33,446 nt of DNA. It comes from Rhodospirillales bacterium (GTDB lineage Bacteria > Pseudomonadota > Alphaproteobacteria > Rhodospirillales > Casp-alpha2). The position numbers and the translations under genes are program-made. Location: the NCBI GenBank assembly GCA_013204265.1, contig JABMOG010000090.1:1-33446 (forward strand), written 5' to 3'. Shown in pieces: positions 2,989 to 32,876 of the stretch. The stretch's first letter is position 1. The number at the start of each line of letters is the position of its first letter. Under the pieces are notes generated by a model. The model saw only the letters and a program-made list of their open reading frames with translations, was not told the origin of the DNA and searched no databases.

Positions 2989-3157
2989 TTTGAACCCGAT
3001 CATATCGGTATGAGGGGGGGGTGTTCAACGTTGGGCTGGTCACTATTCGATGTTTGGTTTAGGCTGATGGCTGGGTAAAGGGAAGGAGGCAAACGGTTGG
3101 CGTTTCAACAGCCGCTCCGTCCTTGAAAACGATGTGTATTCCTTAGGGAGGAACCAA

Positions 3158-4138: not shown

Positions 4139-4162
4139 GCACGGCTGTTATCGCCAGGATGT

Positions 4163-4188
4163 GGCCCGGACCCTGATGGGTCCGGGCC
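4163..4188 (+). terminator. Strong GC-rich hairpin between tctC and tctB; attenuator or partial terminator
   Basis: GGCCCGGACCC-TGAT-GGGTCCGGGCC, 11-bp perfect stem with 4-nt loop, then GTTTTC. Confidence 0.75.
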
Positions 4189-4224
4189 GTTTTCGGCTTA
4201 TCTGACGATCTTCGCGGAGTACTC

Positions 4225-4737
4225 ATGCAACGTCTCAACCGTGACGCCATTATTGCCATCATCCTGTTGGCGCTTTGTGGCGTCTTTTTCTGGGCCAGTT
4301 TCGATATTCGCCAGCCCGATTACGGGGTCCTGATGCCGTCTACGTGGCCGAGGGTGATCATCGGGGTCCTGGCGTTTCTGTCGGTGCTGTATCTTATCCA
4401 ATCCCTGGGCGCTGGAGCCGAAACCCTTGCGGACGGTCAGTCCGACGCCGAGGACGATAGGGGCCCCGGGTTTATGGGCTGGGTCGAACACTGGAAAAAT
4501 CCGCTTTGGTGTTTCTTTCTTTTCTTTATTTATCTTCTGACCTTACCAGTGCTTGGCATGCTGCTCGGCGGTATCGCCTTCGTTTTCGTTCTGATGGGGG
4601 TGTTGGGCGGCTGGGACGGCAAGAAACCGGTGGTTCACGCCGTTTATGCCGTTTGTTCCATTGGCTTCATGTGGGGTCTGTTTACCTTCGGCCTTGGTGT
4701 GTTGTTGCCGACGGGCATGATTCTGGAAGCGTTTTAG
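4225..4737 (+). CDS. tctB: Tripartite tricarboxylate transporter small membrane subunit TctB
   Basis: 170-aa hydrophobic protein between tctC and tctA, with TctB-like N-terminal pattern. Confidence 0.83.
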   Translation: MQRLNRDAIIAIILLALCGVFFWASFDIRQPDYGVLMPSTWPRVIIGVLAFLSVLYLIQSLGAGAETLADGQSDAEDDRGPGFMGWVEHWKNPLWCFFLFFIYLLTLPVLGMLLGGIAFVFVLMGVLGGWDGKKPVVHAVYAVCSIGFMWGLFTFGLGVLLPTGMILEAF

Positions 4738-4746
4738 GGGTCCCCG

Positions 4747-6417: not shown

Positions 6418-6926
6418 GCGAATGGACCGAAGACGTTTTTGAGGTGTTGGTATCGGCGGGTGTTCGCCAGGCGGCTTATGTGCCCGACATGGGCCTGAAG
6501 CGGCTGATCGAGTTGTGCCGCGCAGAAAGCTCCATGCGGGCGGTCTCTCTGACCACCGAAGAAGAAGGCCTTGCCCTGTTGTGCGGGGCCTGGATCGGCG
6601 GCGACCGGGGGGTGTTGATGATGCAGTCGTCCGGCGTCGGCAATTGCCTCAACATGTTATCGCTGACGCGGGCGTGCGAAATTCCGCTGTTGATGATCGT
6701 CACCATGCGTGGCCAGCATCACGAGTTCAATCCGTGGCAAAACCCGATGGGGCAGAACGCGCAAGGGTATCTGGAAACCGCAGGCGTGGCGACACGGATG
6801 ATCGAAGACGGCGCCGCCGTCGGCCCCGCCGTGGCGGAAGCCGTAGGGCCGGTGTTTGAGGAAAACGCCCGCATCGCGATCATGGTGCACCAAAAAGTAA
6901 TGCCCGTTAAAACGTTCGGAAAGTAG
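6414..6926 (+). CDS. comD: TPP-binding decarboxylase alpha subunit, sulfopyruvate/phosphonopyruvate decarboxylase type (ComD-like)
   Basis: 170-aa N-terminal PYR-type domain (TEEEGLALLCGAWIGGDRGVLMMQSSGVGNCLNML); overlaps tctA by 4 nt; split alpha/beta architecture. Confidence 0.75.
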   Translation: MSEWTEDVFEVLVSAGVRQAAYVPDMGLKRLIELCRAESSMRAVSLTTEEEGLALLCGAWIGGDRGVLMMQSSGVGNCLNMLSLTRACEIPLLMIVTMRGQHHEFNPWQNPMGQNAQGYLETAGVATRMIEDGAAVGPAVAEAVGPVFEENARIAIMVHQKVMPVKTFGK

Positions 6927-6937
6927 AGGGATATTTG

Positions 6938-7531
6938 ATGAACACCGACAGCCAGACCTTCCCGCTGCACCGACGCGAGGTCACCAAGGCATTGTTGGCC
7001 AACCGCGACGATTTGGTCGTTGTCGCCGGGTTGGGGTCGTGCGCCTGGGATATCACCGACGCCGGCGACCATGACCTGAACTTTCCATTATGGGGTGCCA
7101 TGGGCGGGGCTGCGACCGTCGGGCTGGGGCTTGCCCTGGCGAAACCCGATCACAGGGTGCTGGTGTTGACCGGCGACGGAGAAATGTTGATGGGCATGGG
7201 CTCGCTTGCCACCATCGCCCTGCAGAAACCGCGCAATCTGGCGGTCGTCGTGTTGGACAACGAGCGCTACGGTGAAACCGGCATGCAAAAGACCCACACC
7301 GCGTTTGGCGTCGATCTGCCGGCGGTCGCACAAGCGGCGGGCTTTCAAACTGTCGGCACCGTCACCGACCAGGCCGGGCTGGTTGAGGCTTGCCCTGTGA
7401 TCCTGGGTGACTCTGGACCGGTGTTTTATACGATCAAGGTGCAGGCCGAGAATTTGGACTTCGTGCTGCCGACCAACGATGGCACGGTCCTGAAAGACCG
7501 CATGCGCAAGGCTCTGTTGGGGCAGGCGTAA
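6938..7531 (+). CDS. comE: TPP-binding decarboxylase beta subunit (ComE-like)
   Basis: TPP motif GDGEMLMGMGSLATIALQKPRNLAVVVLDNERYGETGM; adjacent to the alpha subunit. Confidence 0.77.
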   Translation: MNTDSQTFPLHRREVTKALLANRDDLVVVAGLGSCAWDITDAGDHDLNFPLWGAMGGAATVGLGLALAKPDHRVLVLTGDGEMLMGMGSLATIALQKPRNLAVVVLDNERYGETGMQKTHTAFGVDLPAVAQAAGFQTVGTVTDQAGLVEACPVILGDSGPVFYTIKVQAENLDFVLPTNDGTVLKDRMRKALLGQA

Positions 7532-13382: not shown

Positions 13383-13419
13383 ACTCTCAACGCCGTAAAG
13401 GCGAATGGGAGGACAGTTT

Positions 13420-14802: not shown

Positions 14803-14848
14803 TTTTGATGTTGTTGGTGCCGGTAACGCCGCCCAGTTTAAAGGATGA
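14795..14848 (+). pseudogene. 17-codon relic of an FAD-binding flavoprotein N-terminus (TcuA-like)
   Basis: TTG start after AGGAG; translates LADFDVVGAGNAAQFKG*, resembling the (M)ADxDVVVVGAGNAA Rossmann start of TcuA-like dehydrogenases, then TGA. Confidence 0.55.
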
Positions 14849-14852
14849 GGTT

Positions 14853-18233: not shown

Positions 18234-18305
18234 ATCGTGTCCTTTTCAGCGGCTTGTGAGTTGGCTACCTTAGGACGGAGGTTCCATCAGGGAAAGGCCA
18301 CAACT

Positions 18306-18764
18306 GTGGGAACGAGCACCGAAGCAACTGCCACCGGGGCGCGGGCGGGCATTACGCTGATCACCGGCGTCATTGGTTCCGACACCCATATCGTCGGCAA
18401 CCGGATTGTGTCGATGGCGTTGGAGGAAGCCGGCTTCAAGGTTGTCGCTCTGGGCGCATTGACACCGGCCGAAGAATTTATTGCCGCAGCCATTGAAACG
18501 GCGGCCGACGGCATTCTGGTATCGTCGCTGTATGGCCAGGGCGAACTGGACTGCCGGGGGTTTCGCGACATGTGCGTCGAGGCGGGCTTGGAGGGTATCC
18601 TTTTGTATATCGGCGGCAATCTGGTCGTCGGTAAGCAGGATTGGGCCGAGGTCGAGGCGCGGTACCGGGATTTAGGCTTTGACCGCGCCTTTCCCAACGC
18701 CACCCGCACCGATGAAATCATCGCCGTGCTGGACGCAGATTTTGCCGCCCGGCGGCAAGGCTAA
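18306..18764 (+). CDS. glmS: Methylaspartate (glutamate) mutase-type cobalamin-binding S subunit
   Basis: GVIGSDTHIVGNRIV (DxHxxG), SSLYGQGELDCRGFRDMCVEAGLEGILLYIGGNLVVGKQDW. GTG start. Confidence 0.93.
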   Translation: MGTSTEATATGARAGITLITGVIGSDTHIVGNRIVSMALEEAGFKVVALGALTPAEEFIAAAIETAADGILVSSLYGQGELDCRGFRDMCVEAGLEGILLYIGGNLVVGKQDWAEVEARYRDLGFDRAFPNATRTDEIIAVLDADFAARRQG

Positions 18765-18765
18765 A

Positions 18766-20172
18766 ATGACCGCCGCCCTGCTCATAGATTTCGGTTCCAC
18801 ATTTACCAAACTGCGCGCCGTCGACCTGGACAGCGCGGCTATTATTGGTGCCGGGCAGGGGCCGTCCACAGTCGCCACCGACGTTACCGAGGGTTTAGTC
18901 GCCGCCCTCGGTGACCTGGAAGCCCATATCGGCGGATTGCCCGATTTTAAACACCGATTGGCGTGTTCCAGCGCCGCCGGGGGATTGGCCATGGTGACCG
19001 TCGGGCTGGTCCGGGAACTGACCGCTGAGGCCGCCCGCCAGGCCGCGCTCGGCGCCGGGGCCAAGCTGGTCGGGGCCTTTTCCCATGGACTTACAACACA
19101 CGATATTGCCGAGGTCGAACGTCTGGCCCCCGACATTATCCTGCTCGCCGGGGGCACCGACGGCGGCAATTCTGATGTCATTTTAGCCAACGCCGGCAAG
19201 CTGGCGACCAGCGCCGTGGCCTGCCCCATCGTCGTTGCCGGTAACCGTGAAGCCGCAGACGAGGCCGCAGACGTGTTACGGGCGGCGGGCAAGCCGGTCA
19301 CCGTGGCTGAGAACGTGATGCCGGAATTCGGCGAGCTTAACGTGGAACCGGCCCGCGCCGCCATTCGCACGGTGTTTATCGAGCGCATCGTCCACGCCAA
19401 GGGGATCGACCGTGCGGCGCAAATGTTCGACGCGGTGTTGATGCCGACGCCGGCCGCCGTGCTCGACGCCGCCAAGCTGTTGTCCGAAGGGCTGCCTGGA
19501 AAGGCCGGGCTGGGTCCGTTGCTGGTTGTCGATGTCGGCGGGGCGACCACCGACGTGCATTCGGTGGCAATGGGCGCGCCGACGGTGGAAGGCGTTATCG
19601 CCCACGGCCTGCCCGAGCCCTACCTGAAACGCACCGTCGAAGGTGACCTCGGTATGCGCCTTAACGCCGCCACCATTATCGAGGCGGCGGGGCTGGAGGC
19701 GATCGCGGAACAGGCAGGGCTATCGTTGGTGCGGGCACGGGAAATTCTTGATGCCATTATTTTTGACGTCGAACGCCTGCCCGAGGCTAAGGATGAAGCC
19801 AGTTTTGACCAAGCCTTGGCCCGCGCCGCCGTGGACGCCGCCGTCACCCGGCACGCCGGTTCGCTGAGTATTGTGCAAACGGTGACCGGTCCGGTCCAAA
19901 TGCAGACCGGCAAAGATCTGAGTGCGGTGGAAACCATCATCGGCACCGGCGGGGTGTTGGCCCATTCGGCCAATGGGGGCGGCGGGGCGGTGGAAATTCT
20001 GGCGGCGGGGCTGGCCGATGCGGACCGTCCGCAAAACCTTAAACCCAAAGCGCCTAAGCTGCTGCTCGACAGGGATTACGTATTGTACGCCTGTGGTTTG
20101 CTCGCCACCGTGGCGCCTGAGGTCGCCTTGACCTTTGGCTTGGCCCACATGCATGCTGTCGGTGAGGATTGA
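18766..20172 (+). CDS. glmL: MutL/GlmL ASKHA-fold partner protein of the B12 mutase
   Basis: LIDFGSTFTKLRAVDLD, LLAGGTDGGNSDVILANA, LLVVDVGGATTDVHSVA, IIGTGGVLAHS; located between S and E subunits. Confidence 0.9.
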   Translation: MTAALLIDFGSTFTKLRAVDLDSAAIIGAGQGPSTVATDVTEGLVAALGDLEAHIGGLPDFKHRLACSSAAGGLAMVTVGLVRELTAEAARQAALGAGAKLVGAFSHGLTTHDIAEVERLAPDIILLAGGTDGGNSDVILANAGKLATSAVACPIVVAGNREAADEAADVLRAAGKPVTVAENVMPEFGELNVEPARAAIRTVFIERIVHAKGIDRAAQMFDAVLMPTPAAVLDAAKLLSEGLPGKAGLGPLLVVDVGGATTDVHSVAMGAPTVEGVIAHGLPEPYLKRTVEGDLGMRLNAATIIEAAGLEAIAEQAGLSLVRAREILDAIIFDVERLPEAKDEASFDQALARAAVDAAVTRHAGSLSIVQTVTGPVQMQTGKDLSAVETIIGTGGVLAHSANGGGGAVEILAAGLADADRPQNLKPKAPKLLLDRDYVLYACGLLATVAPEVALTFGLAHMHAVGED

Positions 20173-20177
20173 GAATC

Positions 20178-21665
20178 ATGGGCTTGGACGTTACCGAAAT
20201 TCCCCTTTCATCGGCGCAAATTCCGGGCGACGACTTCGCCCGCATGCGCCGCGACAATCTGGCGCGCTGGCCGACCGGGGCCGAGGTCGACCTGGACGAG
20301 GCCGTGGCGTTCCACAAATCCCTGCCGAAACACAAGCAACTGGGCTGGGTAATGCGGCGGGCGGCGGAAGAAGGCCGTTGCCTGACCCAGCCGCGCGGCG
20401 GTTTCGGCACGCTGGAACTGCAATTGGAACTGATGCGGGCACTCGATCAGGACGGCATGGCTGACATCGTGCCGACGACGACCGACAGCTACACCCGCAA
20501 CGAACAATGGGCGCAGGCCCAGACCGGTATTGAAGAATCGGAACGCTTGGGCAGGTCCATGCTCAACGGTTATCCGATGGTTAATTATGGCCCGCTCGCA
20601 ACGCGCCAACTGATTGAGGCTATCGACAAACCGGCTATCGTGTTGTCCGGCACCGCCATGCCGCGCTTGACGGTGGAAATCGGGTTCGCCGCCGGGTATT
20701 CGGGCTACCTGGGTTCCGGCATCGCCTATACCACGTCCTATACCAAGGACACCTCGATTGCCGAGGGTATCCGCAATTATCAATACCTCGACCGCCTGGC
20801 GGCGCTGTACCAGGAACACGGTGTCGAATTGCATCGCCGCCAACCAGGGTTTCTGACCGGCACCAATGTGCCGCCGTGCATCGCCATCGCCGTTGCCGTG
20901 CTCGACGCATTGTTGGCTGCCGGCCAAGGGGTGCGCAATTACGGGTTGGAGCTGGCACAGACCCTGCACTTGATTCAGGACGCCGTCGCAATCCGTGTGT
21001 GCGGCGAACTGGCCCATGAATATCTTGCCGCCGCCGGTTATACAGACATGTTTTTGCCGGTAACCTCGCTGCACTGGATGGGCGCGTGGCCGCAGGATGA
21101 CGCCCAGTGCCAGGCGCTGGTGGCCTATGGCGGCACCCTTGCCGCCGTCGGCGGTGCGGTCAGCGTGACCACCAAAAGCACGCATGAGGCTTATGGTATT
21201 CCGACCCCCGCCGCCAATGCCGAGGGCCTGCGCACGACCCGCATGGCGGTCTATATGGCGCGCCATATCCGGCTCGATGAATTGCCGGAATTCAAGGCCG
21301 AGGCCGATCTGATGCGACGTGAAACCCGGGCCATCATCGACCGCGTGCTGGAAATGGGCGATGGCGACGCCGCCCAAGGCACGGTCAAGGCCTTGGAGGC
21401 AGGCGCGCTCGATATTCCGTGGTCGCCCAGCCGCTTTGTCCAGTCGCGGGTCATGCCTGCGCGCGACGCCGATGGCTACCTGCGTATTTTCGATCCCGGC
21501 AATATGGTGTTTGCCAAGGACATCGCCGAAATCCACACCGAGCGGTTGAAAAAACGGGCCGAGGCCGAAGGCGTCGCCTATGACCATAATCTGGCGGTCA
21601 GCAGTGTTTACGAAATTTCCGAGCCATTGGATCGCCTGTTACCGTTCCCGTGGGCGGCGGAATAG
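20178..21665 (+). CDS. glmE: Glutamate-mutase-type E subunit with altered substrate pocket
   Basis: WPTGAEVDLDEAV, TQPRGGFGTLELQLELMR, STTTDSYTR-like segment, GRSMLNGYPMVNYGPLA, LTGTNVPP, HWMGAWPQDDAQ, HEAYGIPTPAANAEG, MPARDADG. Confidence 0.9.
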   Translation: MGLDVTEIPLSSAQIPGDDFARMRRDNLARWPTGAEVDLDEAVAFHKSLPKHKQLGWVMRRAAEEGRCLTQPRGGFGTLELQLELMRALDQDGMADIVPTTTDSYTRNEQWAQAQTGIEESERLGRSMLNGYPMVNYGPLATRQLIEAIDKPAIVLSGTAMPRLTVEIGFAAGYSGYLGSGIAYTTSYTKDTSIAEGIRNYQYLDRLAALYQEHGVELHRRQPGFLTGTNVPPCIAIAVAVLDALLAAGQGVRNYGLELAQTLHLIQDAVAIRVCGELAHEYLAAAGYTDMFLPVTSLHWMGAWPQDDAQCQALVAYGGTLAAVGGAVSVTTKSTHEAYGIPTPAANAEGLRTTRMAVYMARHIRLDELPEFKAEADLMRRETRAIIDRVLEMGDGDAAQGTVKALEAGALDIPWSPSRFVQSRVMPARDADGYLRIFDPGNMVFAKDIAEIHTERLKKRAEAEGVAYDHNLAVSSVYEISEPLDRLLPFPWAAE

Positions 21666-21739: not shown

Positions 21740-23170
21740 ATGATCCAGACCGCTACCCAGGCCACCCTCCAGCCAGGCGACGAAACCGAGATCGTTGCGG
21801 GCCTTATTGAACGCGCCCGCGCCGCCCAGGGCGTTTTTGCTGATGCCGATCAAGCCCGTGTCGACGAGGCCGTGACCGCACTGGCGTGGTCGATTTTCGA
21901 GCCCCACCGCGCCCTGGAACTGGCCCAACGCGCGGTTGACGATACCGGCCTCGGCAATGTTGAGAGCAAAATCATCAAGAATCAGCGCAAGACTTTCGGC
22001 TGTCTGCGTGACTTGATGCGGGTGAAAACCGTCGGGGTTATTGAAGACAACCCGGCCAAAGGATTAGTCAAATACGCCAAGCCGGTCGGTGTCGTCGCGG
22101 CCATAGCGCCGTCGACCAACCCGGCGGCGACCCCGGTCAACAAGGCGATGATGTCTTTGAAGGGCCGCAACGCCGTGATTGTCGCGCCCAGCCCCGCCGG
22201 TGCGGGAACCACGACCCTGACGGTCGATTACATGCGGGCCGAGTTGGTAAAAATCGGCCTGCCCGCCGATCTGGTGCAGGTATTGCCGCAGCCGGTCAAC
22301 AAGGCGCTGACCCAGGCGTTGATGGAAGCTGCTGATCTGGTTGTTGTTACCGGGTCACAAAACAACGTTCGCCGGGCCTATTCGTCGGGCACCCCGGCGA
22401 TTGGTGTTGGTGCCGGGGACGTCTCAGTAATTATAGATTCCTCCGCCGACCTTAGCGACGCGGCGGAAAAAATCACGATGTCCAAGATCTTTGATAATTC
22501 CACGTCGTGTTCGTCGGAAAACCAGATCATCGTTCTGGCTGACGTTTACGATGACGCGATCCAGGCGCTCCAAGCCGCCGGTGGTTATCTGGCGACGCCC
22601 TTGGAGAAGGAAAAAATTAGAAATACGCTGTGGGTTGACGGTCATCTCAACCGCAAGGTCATCGCCAAGGATGCCGACGTATTCGCCGCCGAGGCCGGTC
22701 TTGCGCCGGAGGCAGCAATGGCAAAATTTTTCATGGTTGAGGACGAAAACCCCGGCCCTGACACGCCGTTTTGCGACGAAAAATTGTCGCTGGTATTGAC
22801 CATCTACAAGGCGCGCGATTTCGACGACGCGATGGCGCAGACCGACGCCATTATGGATGTTTGTGGGCGCGGCCATTCGGTCGGCATCCACACTGCCGAC
22901 ATGGATCACGCCCGCAAGCTGGCCGAGACCTTATCGACCGTGCGTGTCCTGGTTAATCAGGCGCACACTTTCGGCAATGGCGGCAGTTTCACCAACGGCC
23001 TGCCGTTTACGCTGTCCATGGGCTGCGGAACGTGGGCCGGAAATTCCATTTCGGAAAACCTCAACTACCGCCACTTCATAAACATCACCCATCTGGTGAC
23101 GGAAATCCCCGAAGACAAACCGTCGGAAGACGATTTGTTCGGTGAATACTGGGCCAAGCACGGAAAATAA
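21740..23170 (+). CDS. CoA-acylating aldehyde dehydrogenase (SauS / SucD-Clostridium / EutE-like)
   Basis: APSTNPAATPVNKAMMSLKGRNAVIVAPSPAG, VVTGSQNNVRRAYSSGTPAIGVGAGD, FDNSTSCSSENQIIV (catalytic Cys), VNQAHTFGNGGSFTNGLPFTLSMGCGTWAGNSISENL. Confidence 0.88.
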   Translation: MIQTATQATLQPGDETEIVAGLIERARAAQGVFADADQARVDEAVTALAWSIFEPHRALELAQRAVDDTGLGNVESKIIKNQRKTFGCLRDLMRVKTVGVIEDNPAKGLVKYAKPVGVVAAIAPSTNPAATPVNKAMMSLKGRNAVIVAPSPAGAGTTTLTVDYMRAELVKIGLPADLVQVLPQPVNKALTQALMEAADLVVVTGSQNNVRRAYSSGTPAIGVGAGDVSVIIDSSADLSDAAEKITMSKIFDNSTSCSSENQIIVLADVYDDAIQALQAAGGYLATPLEKEKIRNTLWVDGHLNRKVIAKDADVFAAEAGLAPEAAMAKFFMVEDENPGPDTPFCDEKLSLVLTIYKARDFDDAMAQTDAIMDVCGRGHSVGIHTADMDHARKLAETLSTVRVLVNQAHTFGNGGSFTNGLPFTLSMGCGTWAGNSISENLNYRHFINITHLVTEIPEDKPSEDDLFGEYWAKHGK

Positions 23171-23176
23171 ACGGAC

Positions 23177-24301
23177 ATGAATTTTGAAGAACACGCCGCC
23201 AAACCGCTGTTGAAAGCGGCGGGCATCGCAATTCCCGATGGGTGCTATGCCGTCACTGCAAATGAAGCCGCCGAGGCGCAGCGCACCATCGGCCCTTGTG
23301 TCGTCAAAGCCCAGGTGCCGACCGGTAAACGCGGCAAGGCTGGTGGCATCAAGACTGCGGACACACCTGAAGAGGCTAGCGCAGCCGCGGACGCTATTCT
23401 CGGTATGGAGATCGCGGGGCACCGGGTTGAAGGGGTGTTGGTCGAGGGGCGGTCTGATATCGTACGGGAATTTTATGCCGCCGTGATGAACGACCCCGCG
23501 TCGAAAGGCCCGCTGGTGCTGTTTTCCACGGAAGGCGGCATGGATATCGAAGAGGTTGCCGCTTCAACCCCGGAAAAACTGAAACAAACCGCCGTCGATA
23601 TTCGAGTCGGTTTCGATATGGCTGCGGCAAAGTCCCTGCTGGACGGGTTCGACCTTGGCGACACCTCGGAGCGGATCGCTGATTTTTTGGTCAGGCTTTA
23701 TAGCGCCTACCGCGAATTTGATGCCGAATTACTGGAAGTCAATCCGCTGGCCGAGACAGCCGACGGCGGGCTGGTGGCGCTCGACTGCAAATTCGTGCTC
23801 GACGATTCCGCGATCAAACGCCAAGTCGAACTGGCCGCCCGTGGGGCCCCGGAAAGACTGACCGAGCTTGAAAAACGCGGCGACAAAGCGGTTATAAAAT
23901 ATATCGAACTGGACGGCGATGTCGGGGTATTGGCCAATGGCGCCGGACTGACTATGACGACGATGGACGTTGTCCGCCATCACGGCGGCAATCCGGCGAA
24001 TTTCTGCGAAATCGGCGGCGAAGCCTACACCAAGGCGCAGACGGCGTTGGAGATGGTCCTCGACAAACCGGGAATCAAATCGCTGGTGGTCAATTTCTGC
24101 GGTGCGTTTGCGCGGTGTGAAGTGATGATGGAAGGCCTGCTCAATGCCTGGGAGGAACTTAACCCCGACATACCGGTGTTTTTTTCCATCGCCGGGACCG
24201 GCGACGAGGAAGCCATTAAAATGCTGAAAGACCGCCTCGGGATGGACCCCTACCCGGACATGGACGCCGCCAGTAAGGCTGCGGTGGAGGCTGCGAAATG
24301 A
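23177..24301 (+). CDS. SucC-like beta subunit of a nucleoside-triphosphate-dependent acyl-CoA synthetase
   Basis: VPTGKRGKAGGIKTADTPEEA, FSTEGGMDIEEVA, DGDVGVLANGAGLTMTTMDVVRHHGGNPANFCEIGGEA. Confidence 0.9.
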   Translation: MNFEEHAAKPLLKAAGIAIPDGCYAVTANEAAEAQRTIGPCVVKAQVPTGKRGKAGGIKTADTPEEASAAADAILGMEIAGHRVEGVLVEGRSDIVREFYAAVMNDPASKGPLVLFSTEGGMDIEEVAASTPEKLKQTAVDIRVGFDMAAAKSLLDGFDLGDTSERIADFLVRLYSAYREFDAELLEVNPLAETADGGLVALDCKFVLDDSAIKRQVELAARGAPERLTELEKRGDKAVIKYIELDGDVGVLANGAGLTMTTMDVVRHHGGNPANFCEIGGEAYTKAQTALEMVLDKPGIKSLVVNFCGAFARCEVMMEGLLNAWEELNPDIPVFFSIAGTGDEEAIKMLKDRLGMDPYPDMDAASKAAVEAAK

Positions 24302-25167
24302 GAATTTTGCGGCGCCAACACCGGGTTCTGATCCAGGGCATTACCGGCAAGCAGGGCACGTTCTGGACCGAGTTAATGCAGCAGTACGGCACCAACGTGG
24401 TCGCCGGCGTAAATCCGAAAAAAGCCGGCACCGAGCATTGCGGCGTGCCGGTGTTCGCGTCCGCCACCGAGGCCATGCGCGAGGCCGAATTCGACGCCTC
24501 GGTGCTGTTCATCCCGCCTTTGGGCGTCAAGGATGCGGCATTGGACGCGATTGGCGCGGGTGCGAAAAACCTGTGCATCCTGACCGAACACATCCCCGTC
24601 CAGGATGTCATGCATATAATGGCCGCCGCCCGCGAAGCGGGCACCCACATCACCGGCCCCAACACGGCGGGCTCGGTCACTATCGACGAATGTTTCCAGG
24701 GCTTCATGCCGGCCTTTAACACACGCATTTTTAAAAAAGGTGTCGTCGGGGTGATTTCCCGTTCCGGCAGCCTCGGTACCCTGATGTGCCAAAACATCGT
24801 ATCGGCCGGGTTCGGCCAATCGGCGTTCATCGGCATCGGCGGCGACCCCATCATCGGCACCACGACGCGCGATGCGCTGGAGGCACTTGATGCATTTGAG
24901 GGCACCGACGCGGTGGTCCTGGTCGGGGAAATCGGCGGTGTCATGGAAGAAGAAGCCGCCGAATACGCTGCCACCATGTCGAAACCGGTAATCGCCTTCA
25001 TTGCTGGCGGGGCCGCGCCCAAGGGCAAGAAAATGGGTCACGCCGGGGCTATCGTCATGGGCGACCGTGGAACGTACCAATCAAAAAGCACCGCGCTGCA
25101 AGCCGCCGGGGTCACCGTTTTGGCGACCCCGTCCCACGTCGGCGACGCGCTGAGAGAACGACTGTAG
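24298..25167 (+). CDS. SucD-like alpha subunit of acyl-CoA synthetase
   Basis: VLIQGITGKQGTFWT, ISRSGSLGTLMCQ, GIGGDPIIGTTTRD, phospho-His motif GKKMGHAGAIVMG. Confidence 0.91.
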   Translation: MRILRRQHRVLIQGITGKQGTFWTELMQQYGTNVVAGVNPKKAGTEHCGVPVFASATEAMREAEFDASVLFIPPLGVKDAALDAIGAGAKNLCILTEHIPVQDVMHIMAAAREAGTHITGPNTAGSVTIDECFQGFMPAFNTRIFKKGVVGVISRSGSLGTLMCQNIVSAGFGQSAFIGIGGDPIIGTTTRDALEALDAFEGTDAVVLVGEIGGVMEEEAAEYAATMSKPVIAFIAGGAAPKGKKMGHAGAIVMGDRGTYQSKSTALQAAGVTVLATPSHVGDALRERL

Positions 25168-25621: not shown

Positions 25622-26374
25622 TCAGAATACCGCCCGTCGGATTAAATTTAATCCGACCAACAACAACATCACCAACATCACTTTGCGGAAAGTGTCCTGG
25701 TTGATGCGTTCGCGAATGGCCTCGCCAATGCAAATCCCGATCATGCCGGGGATGCAGGCATACAGCGACAGGTAGACGACATCGCCGGAAAATATGCCGT
25801 TGCGCCAATAGGCAACGGCCAGCGGCACTGAAAACGCAAACCACGCCATCCCGACGCTACGCACGAAGACATCTTTGGGCAGTTTCAGCATGACGAAATA
25901 CATCGTCATGGGCGGCCCCCAGATAGTCGAGATTCCGCCCAACAGCCCGCCCATGGCCCCGGCCAGTGGCCCGGCCCATTTTTCTGTTTTGGGCTGGAGC
26001 GCTGGCATGTTGGGATGCGCCAGGCTGATGGCGGAAAAGGCGGCGACACAGGCCCCCAACATGCCGAACAAGACACCCGTGTCCATGCCGACGATCAATT
26101 CAGCCCCGATGAACAGAAATACCAACCCCGTGATGATCATCGGCCAGAATCGTCTCAAGGGTTCCTGAAGGTTGCCGAGGCGCACCGTTTGCCACAGGTT
26201 AGTGACTATGATCGGCATCACCAGGATGCCCAGCACCGTCAGCGGCGGGAAAAAATTGAGCAGGATGGCGATGGAAACCATGGGCAGGCCCAAGGCGACG
26301 ACGCCTTTAACGACGCCGCCGACGACCAGCGACGCCGTCAGGATGGCGACCAAGGGCCATTCCAATCCGAGCAT
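25622..26374 (-). CDS. TauE/SafE family membrane exporter
   Basis: GGVVKGVVALGLPMVSIAILLNF and GGLLGGISTIWGPPMTMYFVMLKLPKDVFVRSVG; multi-TM. Confidence 0.85.
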   Translation of the reverse strand: MLGLEWPLVAILTASLVVGGVVKGVVALGLPMVSIAILLNFFPPLTVLGILVMPIIVTNLWQTVRLGNLQEPLRRFWPMIITGLVFLFIGAELIVGMDTGVLFGMLGACVAAFSAISLAHPNMPALQPKTEKWAGPLAGAMGGLLGGISTIWGPPMTMYFVMLKLPKDVFVRSVGMAWFAFSVPLAVAYWRNGIFSGDVVYLSLYACIPGMIGICIGEAIRERINQDTFRKVMLVMLLLVGLNLIRRAVF

Positions 26375-26379
26375 CTGTC

Positions 26380-27453
26380 TCAGCCCCCCACGGAAAAGGT
26401 GGCGGTGGCCAGGGCGGAAAGCGTGGTGGCAGGCTTCAGCGCCGGTGCACCCGCTGGCAATACGACGGAGCCGTTGGTGACGGCCATGGGGGTTGCAAAA
26501 ATTCCTGTTTCAGGCTTGAGGAACCCGTTCATTTCACCGGCGTTGTCGATTGTGGTCCGCGCCGTGCAGGCTTCCATCCAGCAGCCAACGTCGCTGGCGA
26601 CTCCGTTGCCGAGGACGGGTGTCATGCCGCGCTCGCGAATTTGCGCCAACCCATCGGCCAGTGCGCCCAGCCCGCCCGCCTTCATTAGTTTCAGTTTGAT
26701 ATAGGTCGCCGCGCCCAGGTCGGCGGCGCGGTCGATGTCATCCGGCCCGTAGATGGACTCGTCCAACATCATCGGCACGGTTGCGACTTCGGCGACGGCG
26801 GCAGCCGCGTCCCAGTCGTCGTCGTGGCAGGGTTGTTCCAACAATTCGATTCCGGCAGGGTTTAGCCCGGCGCAAAATCGGAGCGCCTCATCCTGCCTGT
26901 ATCCCTGGTTGCCGTCGAGCCGGATCAGCGCACGGCCGCGAAGGTGGTTCTGGATAAAGCGGACCCGCGCTATATCCGCCTCGACCTCGAAGCCGACTTT
27001 GACCTTGAGCGTTGCGTAGCCTTCCCCCAGCCGGGCGTCGATTTCCTGGGCGATGCCGTCTTCGTCAGTGGCGTTGACGATGGCCAATAACGGCACGGCG
27101 GTGGCTGTGGGCACGCCGAGCAAGGGGTGACCGTCACACATTTCCAGGGCCGTCATTGTCGCCGTAGACGTGAAGGGGGCGTTCGAGTGTTCGGCCTGAA
27201 TTATCGGCCCTGCGTCCTCCGTCGCCATGCCGGATATGCGTTGCGCCAGGCCGCAGGCGATGGCCCAACTGTCGTCGATGGTTTCGGGCGTATAGCCGGT
27301 CAGGATTGTTGCTTCGCCGTATCCCTCATTGCCGTCACCATCCCGGACGACGCAAAGAACGGTATCGAACGCTTTGACCACTCCTAGCGCCAGCTTGTAG
27401 GGGTGGATCAAAGGTAGGGAAAATCGGTAGAGCGTGATTGATGCAATAGGCAT
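26380..27453 (-). CDS. Enolase-superfamily protein, MLE/dipeptide-epimerase-like subgroup
   Basis: LKVKVGF (KxK), RLDGNQGY, ELLEQP, MLDESIY, YIKLKLMKAGG, GNGVASDVG. Confidence 0.87.
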   Translation of the reverse strand: MPIASITLYRFSLPLIHPYKLALGVVKAFDTVLCVVRDGDGNEGYGEATILTGYTPETIDDSWAIACGLAQRISGMATEDAGPIIQAEHSNAPFTSTATMTALEMCDGHPLLGVPTATAVPLLAIVNATDEDGIAQEIDARLGEGYATLKVKVGFEVEADIARVRFIQNHLRGRALIRLDGNQGYRQDEALRFCAGLNPAGIELLEQPCHDDDWDAAAAVAEVATVPMMLDESIYGPDDIDRAADLGAATYIKLKLMKAGGLGALADGLAQIRERGMTPVLGNGVASDVGCWMEACTARTTIDNAGEMNGFLKPETGIFATPMAVTNGSVVLPAGAPALKPATTLSALATATFSVGG

Positions 27454-27480
27454 AGATGATTTTATGCACAAGGCGCGCGC

Positions 27481-27508
27481 TTGGAACACCCTTAAAACCT
27501 TTTATACT
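27481..27508 (+). promoter_or_regulatory. Candidate promoter placing +1 at or next to the ATG of the SdhB-like gene (leaderless)
   Basis: TTGGAA-N16-TATACT; -10 ends 7 nt before ATG 27516; no Shine-Dalgarno before the ATG. Confidence 0.45.
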
Positions 27509-27515
27509 CAATCCC

Positions 27516-28232
27516 ATGCAGGAATTGCTTACAGTATCGATCTGGCGCGGAGGAGAAGACGGGGAATTCGTCGCCTACGACGTTCCGAGGCGTGAAAACC
27601 AGACCGTGCTGGATGTAGTCACCTATATCCAGCGCAAGCTGGATCCGGGGTTGAGTTATCGCTTTGCCTGCCGCGTCGGTATGTGCGGGTCGTGCGCCAT
27701 GACGGTCAATGGCCGCGCCCGGTGGACATGCCGCACCCATGTGTCGCACGTCGCCAGGGATGGACGGCTGGAAATAGCCCCCTTGCTAAATCTTCCGATT
27801 ATCAAAGACGTCACTGTCGACATGCAGGGCTTCTTCGACAAATGGGCCAAAGCCGGTGGTGCGTTTCAGGCGACGCAGACCCGTAAAGATGATTTCGCCG
27901 CGATCCCGCCAAGCGATCCGAGGCGCCGTCACGCCAACGCCGGTATCGAATGCATTGGTTGCGGAGTCTGTTACGCATCGTGCGACGTGGTCGCGTGGAA
28001 ACCCGATTACCTGGGGCCGGCGGCGCTCAACCGCGCTTGGACGCTGGTCAACGACGCCCGCGACGGAATGGGGGCGGTACGTCTGGCCCTGGTTTCCGGC
28101 GACGACGGGTGTCTGGGCTGTCATTCCCAGCAGGGCTGCCAGGAACACTGCCCAAAATCCTTGAGCCCGACGGCGGCCATTGCCGGGTTGAAACGCGCCG
28201 TGGCGATAGCGACGCTAAAGGGCAAGCTATGA
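27516..28232 (+). CDS. Succinate dehydrogenase/fumarate reductase-like iron-sulfur subunit
   Basis: CRVGMCGSCAMTVNGRARWTC [2Fe-2S], CIGCGVCYASC and CHSQQGCQEHCPKSLSP clusters. Confidence 0.93.
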   Translation: MQELLTVSIWRGGEDGEFVAYDVPRRENQTVLDVVTYIQRKLDPGLSYRFACRVGMCGSCAMTVNGRARWTCRTHVSHVARDGRLEIAPLLNLPIIKDVTVDMQGFFDKWAKAGGAFQATQTRKDDFAAIPPSDPRRRHANAGIECIGCGVCYASCDVVAWKPDYLGPAALNRAWTLVNDARDGMGAVRLALVSGDDGCLGCHSQQGCQEHCPKSLSPTAAIAGLKRAVAIATLKGKL

Positions 28233-28582
28233 GCGCCGGGCAAATACAAACCCGTGTGTGGCTGGCCCAGCGCCTCAGCGCTGTTGTGCTGGCCATCGCC
28301 GTTACCGTGCATCTGGGCGGAATCATTGTCGCCGTACAAGGCGGTCTTTCGGCAGCCGAAATTATCGCCCGCGTCGGCGGCAACGGTGTGGCCGCTCTGT
28401 TTTACGGGATATTTGTCGTCGCCTGCGCCGTGCATGCGCCGATCGGCCTGCGCACCGTTTTGCTGGAAATGACGGCGCTGAAGCCGCGATTGGCAGACGG
28501 TGTTGCCGGGGTATTCGCCGTCGCCGTGCTGGTCCTGGGGCTGCGCGCCGTGCTTGGTTTTTACCAGTTAGGGGCGGGGTGA
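28229..28582 (+). CDS. SDH/FRD-like membrane anchor subunit (SdhC-type)
   Basis: QRLSAVVLAIAVTVHLGG motif, three hydrophobic segments; overlaps the Fe-S gene by 4 nt. Confidence 0.75.
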   Translation: MSAGQIQTRVWLAQRLSAVVLAIAVTVHLGGIIVAVQGGLSAAEIIARVGGNGVAALFYGIFVVACAVHAPIGLRTVLLEMTALKPRLADGVAGVFAVAVLVLGLRAVLGFYQLGAG

Positions 28583-28935
28583 TGGCAGGCACGTTGAACA
28601 AGCCCCATCGCAACCACGCCACTTGGTGGGCATTCGCGCTGCACCGCCTGTCGGGTGTGGCGCTGGCGTTATTCCTTCCCATTCATTTCTGGGTGCTGGG
28701 CCTCGCACTTCGGGGCGAAGTGGCGCTGGACGGTGCCTTGGTATGGTCCGAGCAGCCGTTGGTTAAGCTGGCCGAGGCCGGTTTGATCGTGCTGCTGGCG
28801 GCTCACCTGACTGGTGGGGTGCGGCTGTTGGCGCTGGAATTTTTCCCGTGGCGGGATTGGCAAAAGACCCTGGTGGCGGTTACGGGGGGTGTGAGCCTCG
28901 CCGCCGGGCTTTTGTTTTTGGTCAATGCCTTTTGA
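28582..28935 (+). CDS. SDH/FRD-like membrane anchor subunit
   Basis: WAFALHRLSGVALALFLPIHFWVLG ... AAHLTGGVRLLALEF; overlaps the previous gene by 1 nt. Confidence 0.8.
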   Translation: MAGTLNKPHRNHATWWAFALHRLSGVALALFLPIHFWVLGLALRGEVALDGALVWSEQPLVKLAEAGLIVLLAAHLTGGVRLLALEFFPWRDWQKTLVAVTGGVSLAAGLLFLVNAF

Positions 28936-29647
28936 ATTTTTACTGATACCGGGCGGCGCGTTCCTGGCCGCGTTGGCGGTTGGAGTGGTGGGGTTCGGCG
29001 ACGGCCTGATCGTTGCGGCGGTGTGGCTGCATGTGCTTGCCCCGGTGGAAATCGTGCCGTTGGTAGTGGCGTCGGGCCTGGTTATCCATCTGATATCTTT
29101 GATCAGCCTTCACCAGTCGCTAGACTTTTCAAAGCTGTGGCCCTTCCTGATCGCGGGCACTCTGGGCGTGCCGGTGGGGAACTGGCTGTTGCAGGTTATC
29201 GACCCGAATGTTTTCCGCACCGGGGTCGGGGTGTTTCTGGTGGCTTACGGTGCCTTTTTCCTGATTCGTCCGAATCCTGGCCTGATTACCAGGGGCGGTC
29301 GAACTGCGGACGGGATGATCGGCGCAATCGGTGGGGTTCTGGGCGGGCTGGCGGGGCTTTCGGGTATCGTGCCGGGGGTCTGGGCCAGCCTTCGCGGTTG
29401 GAGCAAGGAACAACAACGCGGCGTCTTTCAGCCGTTCGTTCTTGCCATGCACGCCATGGCGCTGGGCTGGCTGGCGTTCGGCGGCCTGGTTAACGCCCGG
29501 ACCGGCATCAACTTCCTGTGGTGCCTGCCGGCCATCGCGTTGGGGTCCTGGCTCGGGCTTTGGTGCTACGGGCGCTTGGATGAAGGGCGATTTCGCCGTA
29601 TCGTTCTGGGGTTGCTGTTGGTGTTGGGCGTGACGCTGTTGATCTGA
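28925..29647 (+). CDS. TauE/SafE family membrane exporter (second in window)
   Basis: AALAVGVVGFGDGLIVAAVWLHVLAPVEIVPLV, GGVLGGLAGLSGIVPGVWASLRGWSKEQQRGVFQPFVL. Confidence 0.85.
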   Translation: MPFEFLLIPGGAFLAALAVGVVGFGDGLIVAAVWLHVLAPVEIVPLVVASGLVIHLISLISLHQSLDFSKLWPFLIAGTLGVPVGNWLLQVIDPNVFRTGVGVFLVAYGAFFLIRPNPGLITRGGRTADGMIGAIGGVLGGLAGLSGIVPGVWASLRGWSKEQQRGVFQPFVLAMHAMALGWLAFGGLVNARTGINFLWCLPAIALGSWLGLWCYGRLDEGRFRRIVLGLLLVLGVTLLI

Positions 29648-29667
29648 TAAGGGCAGGGGTAGTGGTT

Positions 29668-30543
29668 ATGAAAATCGATCTGGACGCCGTCGAGGAAACG
29701 GCCAAGCTGCTCTATATCCGGGCGCTGAAGGTGCTGCCTGATGACATCAAAGAAGGGTTTAAGCGCCTCGATGCGACTGAGACGGACGCTACCGGAAAAT
29801 CCATCCTGGCGACCATGATCCGCAACATCGATGTTGCCGAAGACACCGACAATCTGCTTTGTCAGGATACCGGCATCCCCATCTATAACGTCACCATCGG
29901 GCGCGGTGTGCAACTCGACGGCGTTGACCTCAAGGCCGCCATCCAGAAGGGCTGCGCGCGGGCGACGACGGAATATCCGCTGCGCTCGTCGGTCGTGCAT
30001 CCGGTGACGCGGGTCAACGAGCATACCTCGTGCGGGCGCAGGGTGCCGGTTATCAATGTCGATTTTTCCGACCGCGTGAATGAGCTGGTGATCGAAATGA
30101 TCCCCAAGGGGTCGGGCTCGGAAAATGGCTCGTTTTTGAAAATGTGCATTCCAGCCGAAGGCGTCAACGGCATCAAGACCTTCGTGATCGACCGTGTGAT
30201 GGAGGCTGGTGGCAAGGTTTGCCCGCCGACCATCGTCGGCGTCGGCGTCGGTGGCACGGCGGACCTGTGTACCAAGATGGCGAAAATCGCCGCTACGCGA
30301 TCTTTGGGTTCGGTGTGTGACGACCCGGAAGGTGCAAAACTGGAAGCGGAACTCTGCGACGCGGTCAACAGCCTCGGCATCGGGCCGCAGGGGCTGGGTG
30401 GTGATTCAACATCGTTCGCCGTGCATGTCGAGACGGCGGCCACCCACATCACCATGAATCCGGTGGCGGTCAACATCCAGTGCCATTCGGCTCGCCGCGC
30501 CCGGGCCACGTTCACGCCCGGCGGCGTCGAAATAGGATTCTGA
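29668..30543 (+). CDS. Class I fumarase / L-tartrate dehydratase-type Fe-S hydro-lyase, alpha subunit
   Basis: LLCQDTGIPIYNV, NEHTSCGRRVPV, IPKGSGSENGSFLKM, KVCPPTIVGVGVGGTAD, IQCHSARRARATF. Confidence 0.92.
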   Translation: MKIDLDAVEETAKLLYIRALKVLPDDIKEGFKRLDATETDATGKSILATMIRNIDVAEDTDNLLCQDTGIPIYNVTIGRGVQLDGVDLKAAIQKGCARATTEYPLRSSVVHPVTRVNEHTSCGRRVPVINVDFSDRVNELVIEMIPKGSGSENGSFLKMCIPAEGVNGIKTFVIDRVMEAGGKVCPPTIVGVGVGGTADLCTKMAKIAATRSLGSVCDDPEGAKLEAELCDAVNSLGIGPQGLGGDSTSFAVHVETAATHITMNPVAVNIQCHSARRARATFTPGGVEIGF

Positions 30544-30546
30544 ATT

Positions 30547-31158
30547 ATGACTGAGCACGAATTCCATATGCCGGTATCGGACAACGACGTGCGTGCCTTG
30601 CGCGTCGGTGACCACGTAGTATTGCAGGACACCCTGTTCGGTATTCGCGATGCCACCTTGATCCACATGTTCGATAAAAACCGGGAAACGCGGCTTGATC
30701 TGAACGGCCACGCCGTTATTCACACGGCGCCGAATGTCAAAAAGGTGCCGGTATCCAATTCCTGCCCGGCGGGATACCAGTCGATCTGCATCGGCACGAC
30801 GACCAGCGCACGGATGGAACGTTTCACCCGGCCGCTGATGGAGAGTAACGGCGTTCGCATAATCATCGGCAAGGGTGGCTTAGGGCCTGAAAGCGCGCAG
30901 GCGTTTCAGGATTTGGGCGGTGTCTATCTGGCGATTATTGGCGGCACGGCGGCGCTGGAAACTACCTGGATCGAACAAATTCTCGACGTCGATATGGACG
31001 ACCTCAACCCGGAAAGCCTGTGGCAGTTCCGAATCAAGGATTTCGGGCCGTTGCTGGTAGCGATGGATGCTCATGGTGGCAGCCTCTATGACGTGGTTCG
31101 CGCCAATGCTCAGGATAAACGCGCCGCGGCTCTCGCCCGCATGGGCATCGACAGTTGA
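30547..31158 (+). CDS. Class I fumarase / L-tartrate dehydratase-type hydro-lyase, beta subunit
   Basis: LRVGDHVVLQDTLFGIRDATL, IGKGGLGPESAQAFQDLGGVYLAIIGGTAAL. Confidence 0.91.
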   Translation: MTEHEFHMPVSDNDVRALRVGDHVVLQDTLFGIRDATLIHMFDKNRETRLDLNGHAVIHTAPNVKKVPVSNSCPAGYQSICIGTTTSARMERFTRPLMESNGVRIIIGKGGLGPESAQAFQDLGGVYLAIIGGTAALETTWIEQILDVDMDDLNPESLWQFRIKDFGPLLVAMDAHGGSLYDVVRANAQDKRAAALARMGIDS

Positions 31159-32876
31159 GCGATTTTGAAACAATTGAGACCGATGTTTTAATCCTCGGCG
31201 CGGGCGGCGCCGGGCTGTTCGCTGCGTTGCACGCATCGACAACGGCCCCCGACCTTTCGATCACTATTGCCGTCAAGGGCTTGTTAGGGAAATGCGGTTG
31301 CACCCGCATGGTCCAGGGTGGCTACAACGTCGCCCTGGCGCCCGGCGATTCGGTCGAGCGCCATTTCATGGACACCGTCGAGGGCGGCAAGTGGCTCAAC
31401 GACCAAGACCTCGCCTGGACCCTGGTTGAGGTTGCCCAGGAACGTGTCCGCGAGTTGGAAAACGAGTTGGGTTGTTTTTTTGATCGTAACGAAGACGGCT
31501 CCGTGCACCAGAAGGCCTTCGCTGGGCAAACGTTTGATCGCACCGTGCACAAGGGCGACCTGACCGGTATCGAGATCATCAACCGGCTGGCCGAACAGGT
31601 GTGGTCGCGGGGGCTGGGGCGGCTCGAAGATCACCGGGCGGTAGAACTGGTTCCCGCCGCTGACGGGACCGGAATTGCTGGTGTCCTGATGATAGACATG
31701 CGTACCGGCGGGTTCGTTTTTGTGCGTGCCCGCGCAGTGCTGATGGCGACTGGCGGCGGGCCGACCATGTACCGGTTCCACACACCATCGGGCGATAAAA
31801 CCGCCGACGGCATGGCCATGGCGTTGCGCGCCGGGTTGCCGTTGCGCGACATGGAAATGGTGCAGTTCCACCCGACCGGCTTGCTGGCCCGGGCGGACAC
31901 CCGGATGACCGGGACTGTTTTGGAGGAGGGCCTGCGCGGGTTCGGGGCGTATCTTTTGGACGGCAATGGCGACAGGTTCATGGACAAATACGACGAGCGC
32001 GCCGAACGCGCCACCCGCGACATCGTCAGCCGCGCTATGTTCGAGGAAATGCGAGCAGGCAAACTTGGGCCGCTGGGTGGGCTGTACCTGTCGATGGGCC
32101 ATCTTGATGAGGCCGAGGTGCGGCGTTTGTTCAAGGGTATGGTGCAGCGCTGTGCCGATTGCGGGTTCGACCTGGCCGGCGATAAGGTCGAGGTGGTGCC
32201 GACGGCGCATTACATGATGGGCGGAATAGAGTTTTCCGCCGATGGCCACACGGAATGGGATGGCCTGTTCGCCGCCGGTGAAGACACCGGGGGTGTGCAC
32301 GGGGCCAACCGGCTGGGCGGCAATGGCGTCGCCAATTCCACCGTGTTCGGCGGCATCGCCGGCGATACCATCGGTCGCTGGACGCCTGGGCAAGGCGTTT
32401 TCCATGATCCTGATGAGGCGGCTATCGCAGCCGCCATGAGACTTTGCCGGACACCGTTGTCCAACCCGCCCGGCGATCTGGAAGATATCCGCACCCGGCT
32501 GGCCGATATCATGTGGGATGACGTCGGCATCGTCCGCGATGCGGCCTCGCTGACCCGCGCCTTGGACGGGCTGGTGGTGTTGGAGACCGACCTCGACGGC
32601 ATCGGCGTCGATGGCGGGAACCTTGCCTACAATCTGACCTGGCATGACTGGATGAACCTGAAAAACCTGATTTTGGTGTCGCGCGCGATCACTGCCGCCG
32701 CCCTCGCCCGTGACGATTCCCGCGGCGCCCATTTTCGCGCCGATTTTCCCGAGACCCGCAATCTGGAAACCTCGACCTTCACCCGTGTGCGGCTGGTCGG
32801 GGATGAGATGGAAACGACCGCTGAGCCGGTCGTATTCACTCGCGTCAAGCCGGGTGAAACGCTGTTGGACACATAA
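31155..32876 (+). CDS. SDH/FRD-like flavoprotein subunit, atypical (no covalent-FAD His)
   Basis: TDVLILGAGGAGLFAALHA, GCTRMVQGGYNVAL, MVQFHPTGLLAR, LEEGLRGFGAYLL, TAHYMMGGIEF, VHGANRLGGNG. TTG start overlapping the upstream TGA. Confidence 0.92.
   Translation: MSDFETIETDVLILGAGGAGLFAALHASTTAPDLSITIAVKGLLGKCGCTRMVQGGYNVALAPGDSVERHFMDTVEGGKWLNDQDLAWTLVEVAQERVRELENELGCFFDRNEDGSVHQKAFAGQTFDRTVHKGDLTGIEIINRLAEQVWSRGLGRLEDHRAVELVPAADGTGIAGVLMIDMRTGGFVFVRARAVLMATGGGPTMYRFHTPSGDKTADGMAMALRAGLPLRDMEMVQFHPTGLLARADTRMTGTVLEEGLRGFGAYLLDGNGDRFMDKYDERAERATRDIVSRAMFEEMRAGKLGPLGGLYLSMGHLDEAEVRRLFKGMVQRCADCGFDLAGDKVEVVPTAHYMMGGIEFSADGHTEWDGLFAAGEDTGGVHGANRLGGNGVANSTVFGGIAGDTIGRWTPGQGVFHDPDEAAIAAAMRLCRTPLSNPPGDLEDIRTRLADIMWDDVGIVRDAASLTRALDGLVVLETDLDGIGVDGGNLAYNLTWHDWMNLKNLILVSRAITAAALARDDSRGAHFRADFPETRNLETSTFTRVRLVGDEMETTAEPVVFTRVKPGETLLDT

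Follow-up and report, generated by a model that had tools for sequence, protein, structure and literature searches.

An altered GlmE-like mutase, found here in a 33,446 nt stretch of Rhodospirillales DNA (the window), marks one widespread bacterial lineage and is no local accident. The protein has the glutamate-mutase fold and comes with the B12 machinery, R149 and E171 are lost and an arginine at position 214 is gained throughout the clade, and its genes are tightly tied to sulfonate genes. In the absence of activity data, we lean, by a modest margin, toward reading GlmS-GlmL-GlmE as an AdoCbl-dependent mutase of organosulfonate catabolism. For the exact substrate pair, 2-sulfopropionate/3-sulfopropionate is the leading candidate, itself slightly more likely to need revision than to stand and likewise without activity data.

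Active site and B12 machinery of the GlmE-like subunit

In a phmmer search the translated ORF (495 aa) aligns with glutamate mutase epsilon over residues 16-481 (1e-114), and it scores 454 bits against the NCBIfam model MthylAspMut_E, above its cutoff of 390. Aligned without gaps in the active-site region to Clostridium cochlearium GlmE, the reference for residue numbering, it is identical at R66, R100, N123, Y177, Y181, K326 and E330 and substituted at R149 (Leu), H150 (Ser) and E171 (Leu). An AlphaFold2 model of the subunit (mean pLDDT 92.7) superposes on 6h9e_B/1cb7_B with a TM of 0.94-0.96 and 1.2 A rmsd over about 470 columns, so there is no sign of a register shift that would restore Arg or Glu.

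Much of this had been claimed from sequence alone. The original prediction gave a gap-free register with R66, R100, Y177, Y181 and K326 conserved, which held, with E330 and N123 conserved too; its three substitutions also held, with the codons at exactly the positions it had named, and the model superposition, in line with the check it suggested, gave no hint of an Arg or acidic residue at the altered positions. Its claim of an intact radical machinery was borne out by the GlmS motif, a GlmL above cutoff and the kept R66, R100, Y177, Y181, K326 and E330. What it did not contain is the replacement of E214 by Arg in all core members, the changes F216 to Pro, H291 to Leu and F297 to Trp, and the organosulfonate gene context.

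As seen in GlmE crystal structures, the glycyl half of the substrate is gripped by R66 and R149, with E171 in contact with its amine, and the acrylate half by R100 and Y177 (PMC10947579). Since R100 and Y177 are kept and R149 and E171 replaced, the side of the pocket that holds acrylate is intact, and the side for the migrating group has changed. The pocket swaps Arg149 and Glu171 for Leu and adds Arg214, an active site rebuilt and not simply lost; this is shown at the sequence level, and the reach of Arg214 to the substrate is inferred. The net shift toward positive charge would possibly suit an amine-free, more anionic substrate, again by inference, a contact between Arg214 and the substrate not being established.

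Of the features of glutamate mutase, those met are a TIM-barrel E subunit with AdoCbl machinery, a separate S subunit with the DxHxxG cobalamin motif, and GlmL; those unmet are the arginine claw R66/R100/R149 (R149 being Leu) and the amine-contacting E171 (also Leu). GlmS of the window, whose annotated start is probably too early, carries GSDTHIVG, and GxDTHIVG is found in 22/22 collected homologues. Methylaspartate ammonia-lyase is the usual enzyme downstream of glutamate mutase. No match to it was found in the window's genome (a 90%-complete MAG), and only 5 of the 42 genomes with the new mutase family have a copy above cutoff. The five genomes with both are G449, G467, G481, G485 and G490.

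About 80 loci were collected by a scan of genome contigs and a search in related genomes, and the clade comprises 68 non-redundant core loci (alpha-, beta-, gammaproteobacterial and similar MAGs) plus 6 distant loci. Azospirillum oleiclasticum (L039) and Hyphomicrobium sp. CS1BSMeth3 (L096) are carriers available in culture. Every clade homologue covering the sites has Leu149 and Leu171: within an alignment of 103 rows, these stand in 95/95 and 94/94 of the new-type rows covering the respective site, and all 6 glutamate-mutase-type rows have Arg149/His150/Glu171. The predicted Leu states are thus clade-wide, and position 150 is Ser or Thr, not Ser alone, with one exception. R66, R100, Y177, Y181, K326 and E330 are invariant across the aligned new-type rows. 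Arg replaces E214 in 82/82 core-clade rows, and group comparison returned further fixed states of the core clade (F216P, S180, T95, E102, H291L and F297W). Substitutions invariant across a clade point to selection and not to decay. A tree from which columns 149, 150, 171 and 214 were excluded sets the core clade apart on one side of a branch with a support of 100 and puts true-type GlmE (Arg/His/Glu) on a branch of its own with a support of 99; several end branches are long.

A referee may ask whether this is still a glutamate mutase, with Arg214 substituting for Arg149 in the claw. The score above the NCBIfam equivalog cutoff for methylaspartate mutase E speaks for it. Against it, Leu stands at the ammonium contact E171 in every member, the window's genome yielded no methylaspartate ammonia-lyase and only 5 of 42 genomes have it over cutoff, the neighbours are sulfonate genes (below) and true-type GlmE lies on a separate branch. 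We consider this reading very unlikely.

Sulfonate genes around the mutase

The features of the window are collected in Table 1. The importer, which from its translation we take to be TctC, TctB and TctA, is possibly an organosulfonate transporter. The adjacent decarboxylase has TIGR03845 (108 bits, cutoff 148) and TIGR03846 (138 bits, cutoff 222) as its best families, both below cutoff. L-Ala-D/L-Glu epimerase (1jpm) is the nearest solved structure to the enolase-superfamily enzyme. Only near relatives share the MmgE/PrpD and PrpF-type isomerase genes that precede the mutase operon (window 13405-16004). Promoter and terminator scans returned counts equal to the shuffled expectation.

Table 1. 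Features of the window, with positions, strand and basis of assignment.
Feature	Position	Strand	Basis
Tripartite tricarboxylate importer (TctC, TctB, TctA)	3134..6417	+	TctA matches TctA/TctC neighbours of other mutase loci
Two-subunit decarboxylase, closest to sulfopyruvate decarboxylase alpha/beta	6414..7531	+	TIGR03845, TIGR03846
GlmS-like cobalamin-binding subunit	18237..18764	+	methylaspartate mutase subunit S, 187 bits > cutoff 110 (NCBIfam)
GlmL-like accessory/reactivase protein	18769..20172	+	accessory_GlmL, 570 bits > cutoff 475 (NCBIfam)
GlmE-like mutase subunit with Leu149/Ser150/Leu171/Arg214 (GlmE numbering)	20178..21665	+	homology, alignment, model superposition
Codons TTG TCC, R149 to Leu and H150 to Ser	20643..20648 (TTG 20643-20645, TCC 20646-20648)	+	alignment
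Codon CTG, E171 to Leu	20709..20711	+	alignment
Codon of residue 221, E214 to Arg (GlmE numbering), invariant in core clade	20838..20840	+	alignment
CoA-acylating aldehyde dehydrogenase, SauS family	21740..23170	+	NF047625, 774 bits > cutoff 600
SucC-like ADP-forming CoA ligase beta, GAFAR replacing GGITR/GGIVR-type substrate-loop motif	23177..24301	+	below succinate-ligase cutoffs; alignment, motif count
SucD-like CoA ligase alpha, RSGSLGTLM replacing (R/K)SGTLTYEA	24298..25167	+	below succinate-ligase cutoffs; alignment, motif count
TauE/SafE exporter	25622..26374	-	Pfam PF01925
Enolase-superfamily (MLE subgroup) enzyme, proposed epimerase	26380..27489	-	Pfam PF13378
FrdB-like iron-sulfur subunit	27516..28232	+	Pfam Fer2_3/Fer4
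FrdC/FrdD-like membrane anchors	28223..28935	+	ORFs; next to FrdB in relatives, conserved
Second TauE/SafE exporter	28925..29647	+	Pfam PF01925
Class I fumarase-like alpha subunit	29662..30543	+	PRK06246, 308 bits (NCBIfam)
Class I fumarase-like beta subunit	30547..31158	+	TIGR00723/ttdB matches, below cutoffs
FrdA-like flavoprotein, distinct subfamily	31155..32876	+	homology, alignment

Neighbour counts cover 79 mutase loci, some truncated at contig ends. GlmL adjoins the mutase in 65 of them and GlmS is recognised in 44, and the enolase-superfamily gene is a neighbour in 45 (present in 38/42 genomes). Less frequent are TTT-transporter binding proteins (about 30), a quinone-oxidoreductase-like gene (27), a SauS-type dehydrogenase (16; the Azospirillum one scores 796 bits against the cutoff of 600), Frd genes (10-12) and SucCD-like ligases (8-10). 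Xsc (sulfoacetaldehyde acetyltransferase) and TauE also adjoin the mutase in some loci and are thus local neighbours, not merely genome-mates. Beside the mutase in some beta-/gammaproteobacterial loci lie what we take to be SuyAB-, SlcC- and ComC-like genes, named by similarity, no curated model having been passed; the SuyB-like protein shows an 87% match to UxaA-family proteins in Cupriavidus pinatubonensis, where SuyAB was identified (PMC12890257). Gene orders in a gammaproteobacterial locus (L032, GlmL-GlmE-FumB-FrdA-SlcC-ComC) and a betaproteobacterial one (L084, FrdA immediately after GlmE) place the mutase upstream of the Frd-Fum module.

In locus L115 (6008-8645), an operon of Xsc, TctC and what we take, by sight, to be the large and small aconitase-X subunits faces the mutase operon. 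Aconitase X also adjoins the Frd cluster in L121 and L135.

At the genome level, with 387 genomes of the window's class as background, Xsc is over its curated cutoff in 39/49 mutase genomes versus 46/387 (p 8e-23), SauS is found in 36/45 versus 24/387, and the FrdA subfamily described below (threshold E <= 1e-150) in 36/41 versus 32/387. For the alphaproteobacterial subset, that is, loci whose titles name alphaproteobacterial groups, the counts are 15/18, 16/17 and 16/17, respectively (one-sided Fisher p 5e-11, 6e-17 and 2e-15). These genomes are mutually related, with many MAGs among them; the full sets extend to beta- and gammaproteobacteria, against a background of one class. At the threshold used, the FrdA subfamily is missing from three of 39 core genomes, and Xsc is missing from some (incomplete MAGs). 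The window's genome holds Xsc only as a fragment (C5:4451-4966); its genus relatives have Xsc and the mutase on the same contig.

A distant second GlmE-like group (L085-L090; Rokubacteria, Chloroflexi, Deltaproteobacteria) has Leu149 and Leu171 but retains E214, H291 and F297. Its two searched genomes (G486, G487) have no Xsc over cutoff and no FrdA subfamily, which serves as an internal control. We rejected these sequences as the same enzyme on account of both observations, and infer that they probably act on yet another new substrate.

A non-sulfonate, amine-free acid should be considered here, e.g. 2-hydroxyglutarate/3-methylmalate or methylmalonate semialdehyde/succinate semialdehyde, with the sulfonate genes reflecting shared ecology. 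Any deaminated substrate would be compatible with the loss of Glu171, which binds the amine, and the acylating aldehyde dehydrogenase, SucCD-like, Frd and Fum proteins superficially resemble a semialdehyde-to-malate route. However, the dehydrogenase is above the SauS cutoff, the SucCD-like ligase and FrdA differ from the succinate enzymes at substrate contacts, and Xsc, TauE and Suy genes are local neighbours beyond the shared genome. We find this alternative unlikely; its semialdehyde version was set aside because the dehydrogenase, SucCD-like ligase and FrdA all diverge from succinate enzymes and the sulfonate genes are local.

The TauE sulfite exporters near the mutase also fit a B12-dependent C-S lyase, in which a radical beside the C-S bond would expel sulfite as in the glycyl-radical enzyme IslA; glycyl-radical enzymes are known to cleave C-S bonds by a radical mechanism (PMC12890257). 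Yet R100, Y177, Y181, K326 and E330, which serve isomerisation in glutamate mutase, are all retained, and the same genomes have separate desulfonating enzymes (Xsc, SuyAB), leaving this reading very unlikely.

The Frd-Fum module and a possible 1,2-sulfonate shift

In many mutase genomes, from several lineages, FrdABCD-FumAB adjoin SuyAB-, SlcC- and ComC-like genes, in some together with Xsc, SauS and SucCD. Cultured Methylobacterium radiotolerans, M. oryzae and Paracoccus versutus have the same arrangement on plasmids, whereas in Pseudomonas sp. MPC6 and strain NT-25 plasmid-borne FrdABCD-FumAB come with sulfate/sulfite exporter genes. E. coli FrdA His44 links FAD covalently and Thr244 binds carboxylate. 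In the FrdA subfamily these are Cys and Glu in 26/26 aligned copies, plasmid-borne ones from cultured bacteria included; the remaining catalytic residues are kept, and the His44/Thr244 test for succinate dehydrogenase/fumarate reductase is unmet.

DHPS breakdown naturally yields 3-sulfopropionate (PMC11489063), and a thesis by J. Mayer cited in PMC11489063 has homotaurine-derived 3-sulfopropionate degraded aerobically via sulfoacrylate and sulfolactate in Roseovarius nubinhibens. From chemistry and gene order, and independently of that thesis, we infer that the module fits oxidation of 3-sulfopropionate to 3-sulfoacrylate, followed by a hydration that would give sulfolactate or, if it took place at the other carbon, malonate semialdehyde and sulfite. 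Against this assignment, Glu244 and Cys44 are not obviously suited to, nor explained by, oxidation of 3-sulfopropionate, itself an inferred substrate.

The plasmids offer some further observations. On that of MPC6 (L134, 8318-13167), the module lies beside a CoA-acylating (methyl)malonate-semialdehyde dehydrogenase, with sulfite oxidase and sulfate exporter genes nearby, a gene content from which a route from 3-sulfopropionate to malonate semialdehyde and sulfite and on to acetyl-CoA may be inferred. The conjugative plasmid of NT-25 (L137, 1-13894) has the module with a TRAP importer, a gene annotated as sulfolactaldehyde 3-reductase and a gabD-like dehydrogenase, and by gene content possibly resembles a route from 3-hydroxypropanesulfonate to 3-sulfopropionate. 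On a Sulfitobacter sp. THAF37 plasmid (L138, 9706-23254), FrdABCD-FumAB lie with a TTT transporter, TauE and a mandelate-racemase-family enzyme, and no mutase is found on that stretch. We rejected this mandelate-racemase gene as a counter-example, its 28% identity over 158 residues indicating a different enzyme.

If 3-sulfopropionate is the linear partner, the 1,2-shift isomer is 2-sulfopropionate, whichever group moves; with R100 and Y177 retained for acrylate, it would be the sulfonate that migrates. The original prediction spoke of a carbon-skeleton mutase for a changed substrate, perhaps one without the alpha-amino group. The changed substrate is supported by clade invariance, the mostly absent ammonia-lyase and gene context, without biochemistry; the label may be the wrong name if the migrating group is a sulfonate.

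The bolder reading, a possibility only, is a B12-dependent 1,2-sulfonate migration from 2- to 3-sulfopropionate heading what would be a full sulfonate equivalent of the methylmalonyl-CoA/succinate/fumarate/malate route. In our leading account, whose steps are all inferred, the sulfo-acid would be imported by the TTT transporter, and the alpha-carbon of 2-sulfopropionate epimerised by the enolase-superfamily enzyme, as methylmalonyl-CoA epimerase works with its mutase. The mutase would abstract H, and fragmentation-recombination would then move the sulfonate: where glutamate mutase splits its substrate into glycyl radical and acrylate, the pair here would be acrylate (bound by R100/Y177) and a sulfite radical, the latter bound by R66, perhaps also by R214 and Ser/Thr150. 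From established radical chemistry, this pair may be considered plausible. FrdABCD would take 3-sulfopropionate to 3-sulfoacrylate, FumAB would hydrate this to 3-sulfolactate, and SlcC/ComC-like dehydrogenases with sulfopyruvate decarboxylase would yield sulfoacetaldehyde, which may proceed to Xsc or, via SauS and the SucCD-like ligase, to sulfoacetate (or in the reverse direction). SuyAB would offer an alternative exit to pyruvate and sulfite.

That 2-sulfopropionate has a chiral, acidic alpha-carbon beside its carboxylate, a target for an epimerase, would explain the constant enolase-superfamily partner. As inferred from sequence, the two-base KxK/K pattern of this enzyme may fit an epimerase at least as well as a lyase. 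A methylaspartate-pathway analogue, in which the gene acts as a lyase replacing methylaspartate ammonia-lyase, is possible in principle; we did not retain it, KxK/K fitting an epimerase at least equally.

Further points count against the 2-/3-sulfopropionate pair, besides the missing ligase signature (below) and the genomes without the FrdA subfamily or Xsc. We found no mention of 2-sulfopropionate in the literature searched, and no natural source is documented there; SauS and Xsc, for their part, could possibly serve other sulfonates of generalist degraders. A related alternative keeps the organosulfonate B12 mutase and changes its substrate, e.g. 2-sulfo-3-hydroxypropionate to 3-sulfolactate, or a larger sulfo-dicarboxylate. 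The genome association with Xsc, SauS and the FrdA subfamily fits it equally, and SuyAB, SlcC and ComC act on sulfolactate and adjoin the mutase in some loci. It leaves unexplained, however, why the FrdA subfamily is the most constant genomic partner, adjoining the mutase in several lineages, and we regard it as unlikely. The 2-/3-sulfopropionate pair remains our preferred working candidate.

Significance and comparison with known systems

Organosulfonates hold a large share of biological sulfur, and recent papers reportedly call the microbial degradation of C3 sulfonates such as 3-sulfopropionate unclear. The literature searched for a joining of glutamate mutase with sulfonates returned no earlier report of a B12 mutase in sulfonate use, and a 1,2-sulfonate shift, if shown, would be new chemistry. 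If a B12 mutase does act on sulfonates here, cobalamin supply would be tied to the sulfur cycle, adenosylcobalamin chemistry would gain a reaction type, and a wide range of proteins at present called methylaspartate mutase would have their annotation corrected. Natural variants of the glutamate-mutase claw are also material for studying how protein controls radical fragmentation.

With glutamate mutase GlmES and GlmL of C. cochlearium (1CB7/1CCW/1I9C/6H9E), the new mutase shares the fold, the two-subunit base-off/His-on B12 architecture, GlmL and R66/R100/Y177/Y181/K326/E330. It differs at R149/H150/E171 (Leu, Ser/Thr, Leu), E214 (Arg), F216 (Pro), H291 (Leu) and F297 (Trp), and in a sulfonate gene context mostly without methylaspartate ammonia-lyase.

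The pairing of a CoA-acylating aldehyde dehydrogenase with a SucCD-like ADP-forming ligase (21740-25167) is that of the sulfoacetate modules SauS-SauCD (Bilophila) and SqwD-SqwKL, which come from other organisms and were described without any mutase; the reaction direction in the window is not established. HpfX/HpfYZ of Enterococcus gilvus (3-sulfopropionaldehyde dehydrogenase, 3-sulfopropionate-CoA ligase) share the enzyme families and a C3 sulfonate. The 3-sulfopropionate-CoA ligase signature, His160 in HpfZ and Asn312 in HpfY (PMC11489063), is absent from the window's pair, where GAFAR and RSGSLGTLM stand, and the SucCD-like ligase may therefore serve sulfoacetate, as SauCD and SqwKL do.

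The degradation of 3-sulfopropionate in R. nubinhibens, as cited in PMC11489063, passes through the same sulfoacrylate and sulfolactate that we infer for FrdABCD/FumAB, but starts at homotaurine, and the citing passage names no genes and no mutase. Finally, methylmalonyl-CoA epimerase, its mutase, succinate dehydrogenase and fumarase follow the same logic as the proposed route, namely an epimerase, a B12 mutase turning a branched into a linear acid, a dehydrogenase and a hydratase; here, by contrast, there would be no CoA ester, a sulfonate would stand for the thioester, as we infer, and the mutase belongs to an unrelated subfamily.
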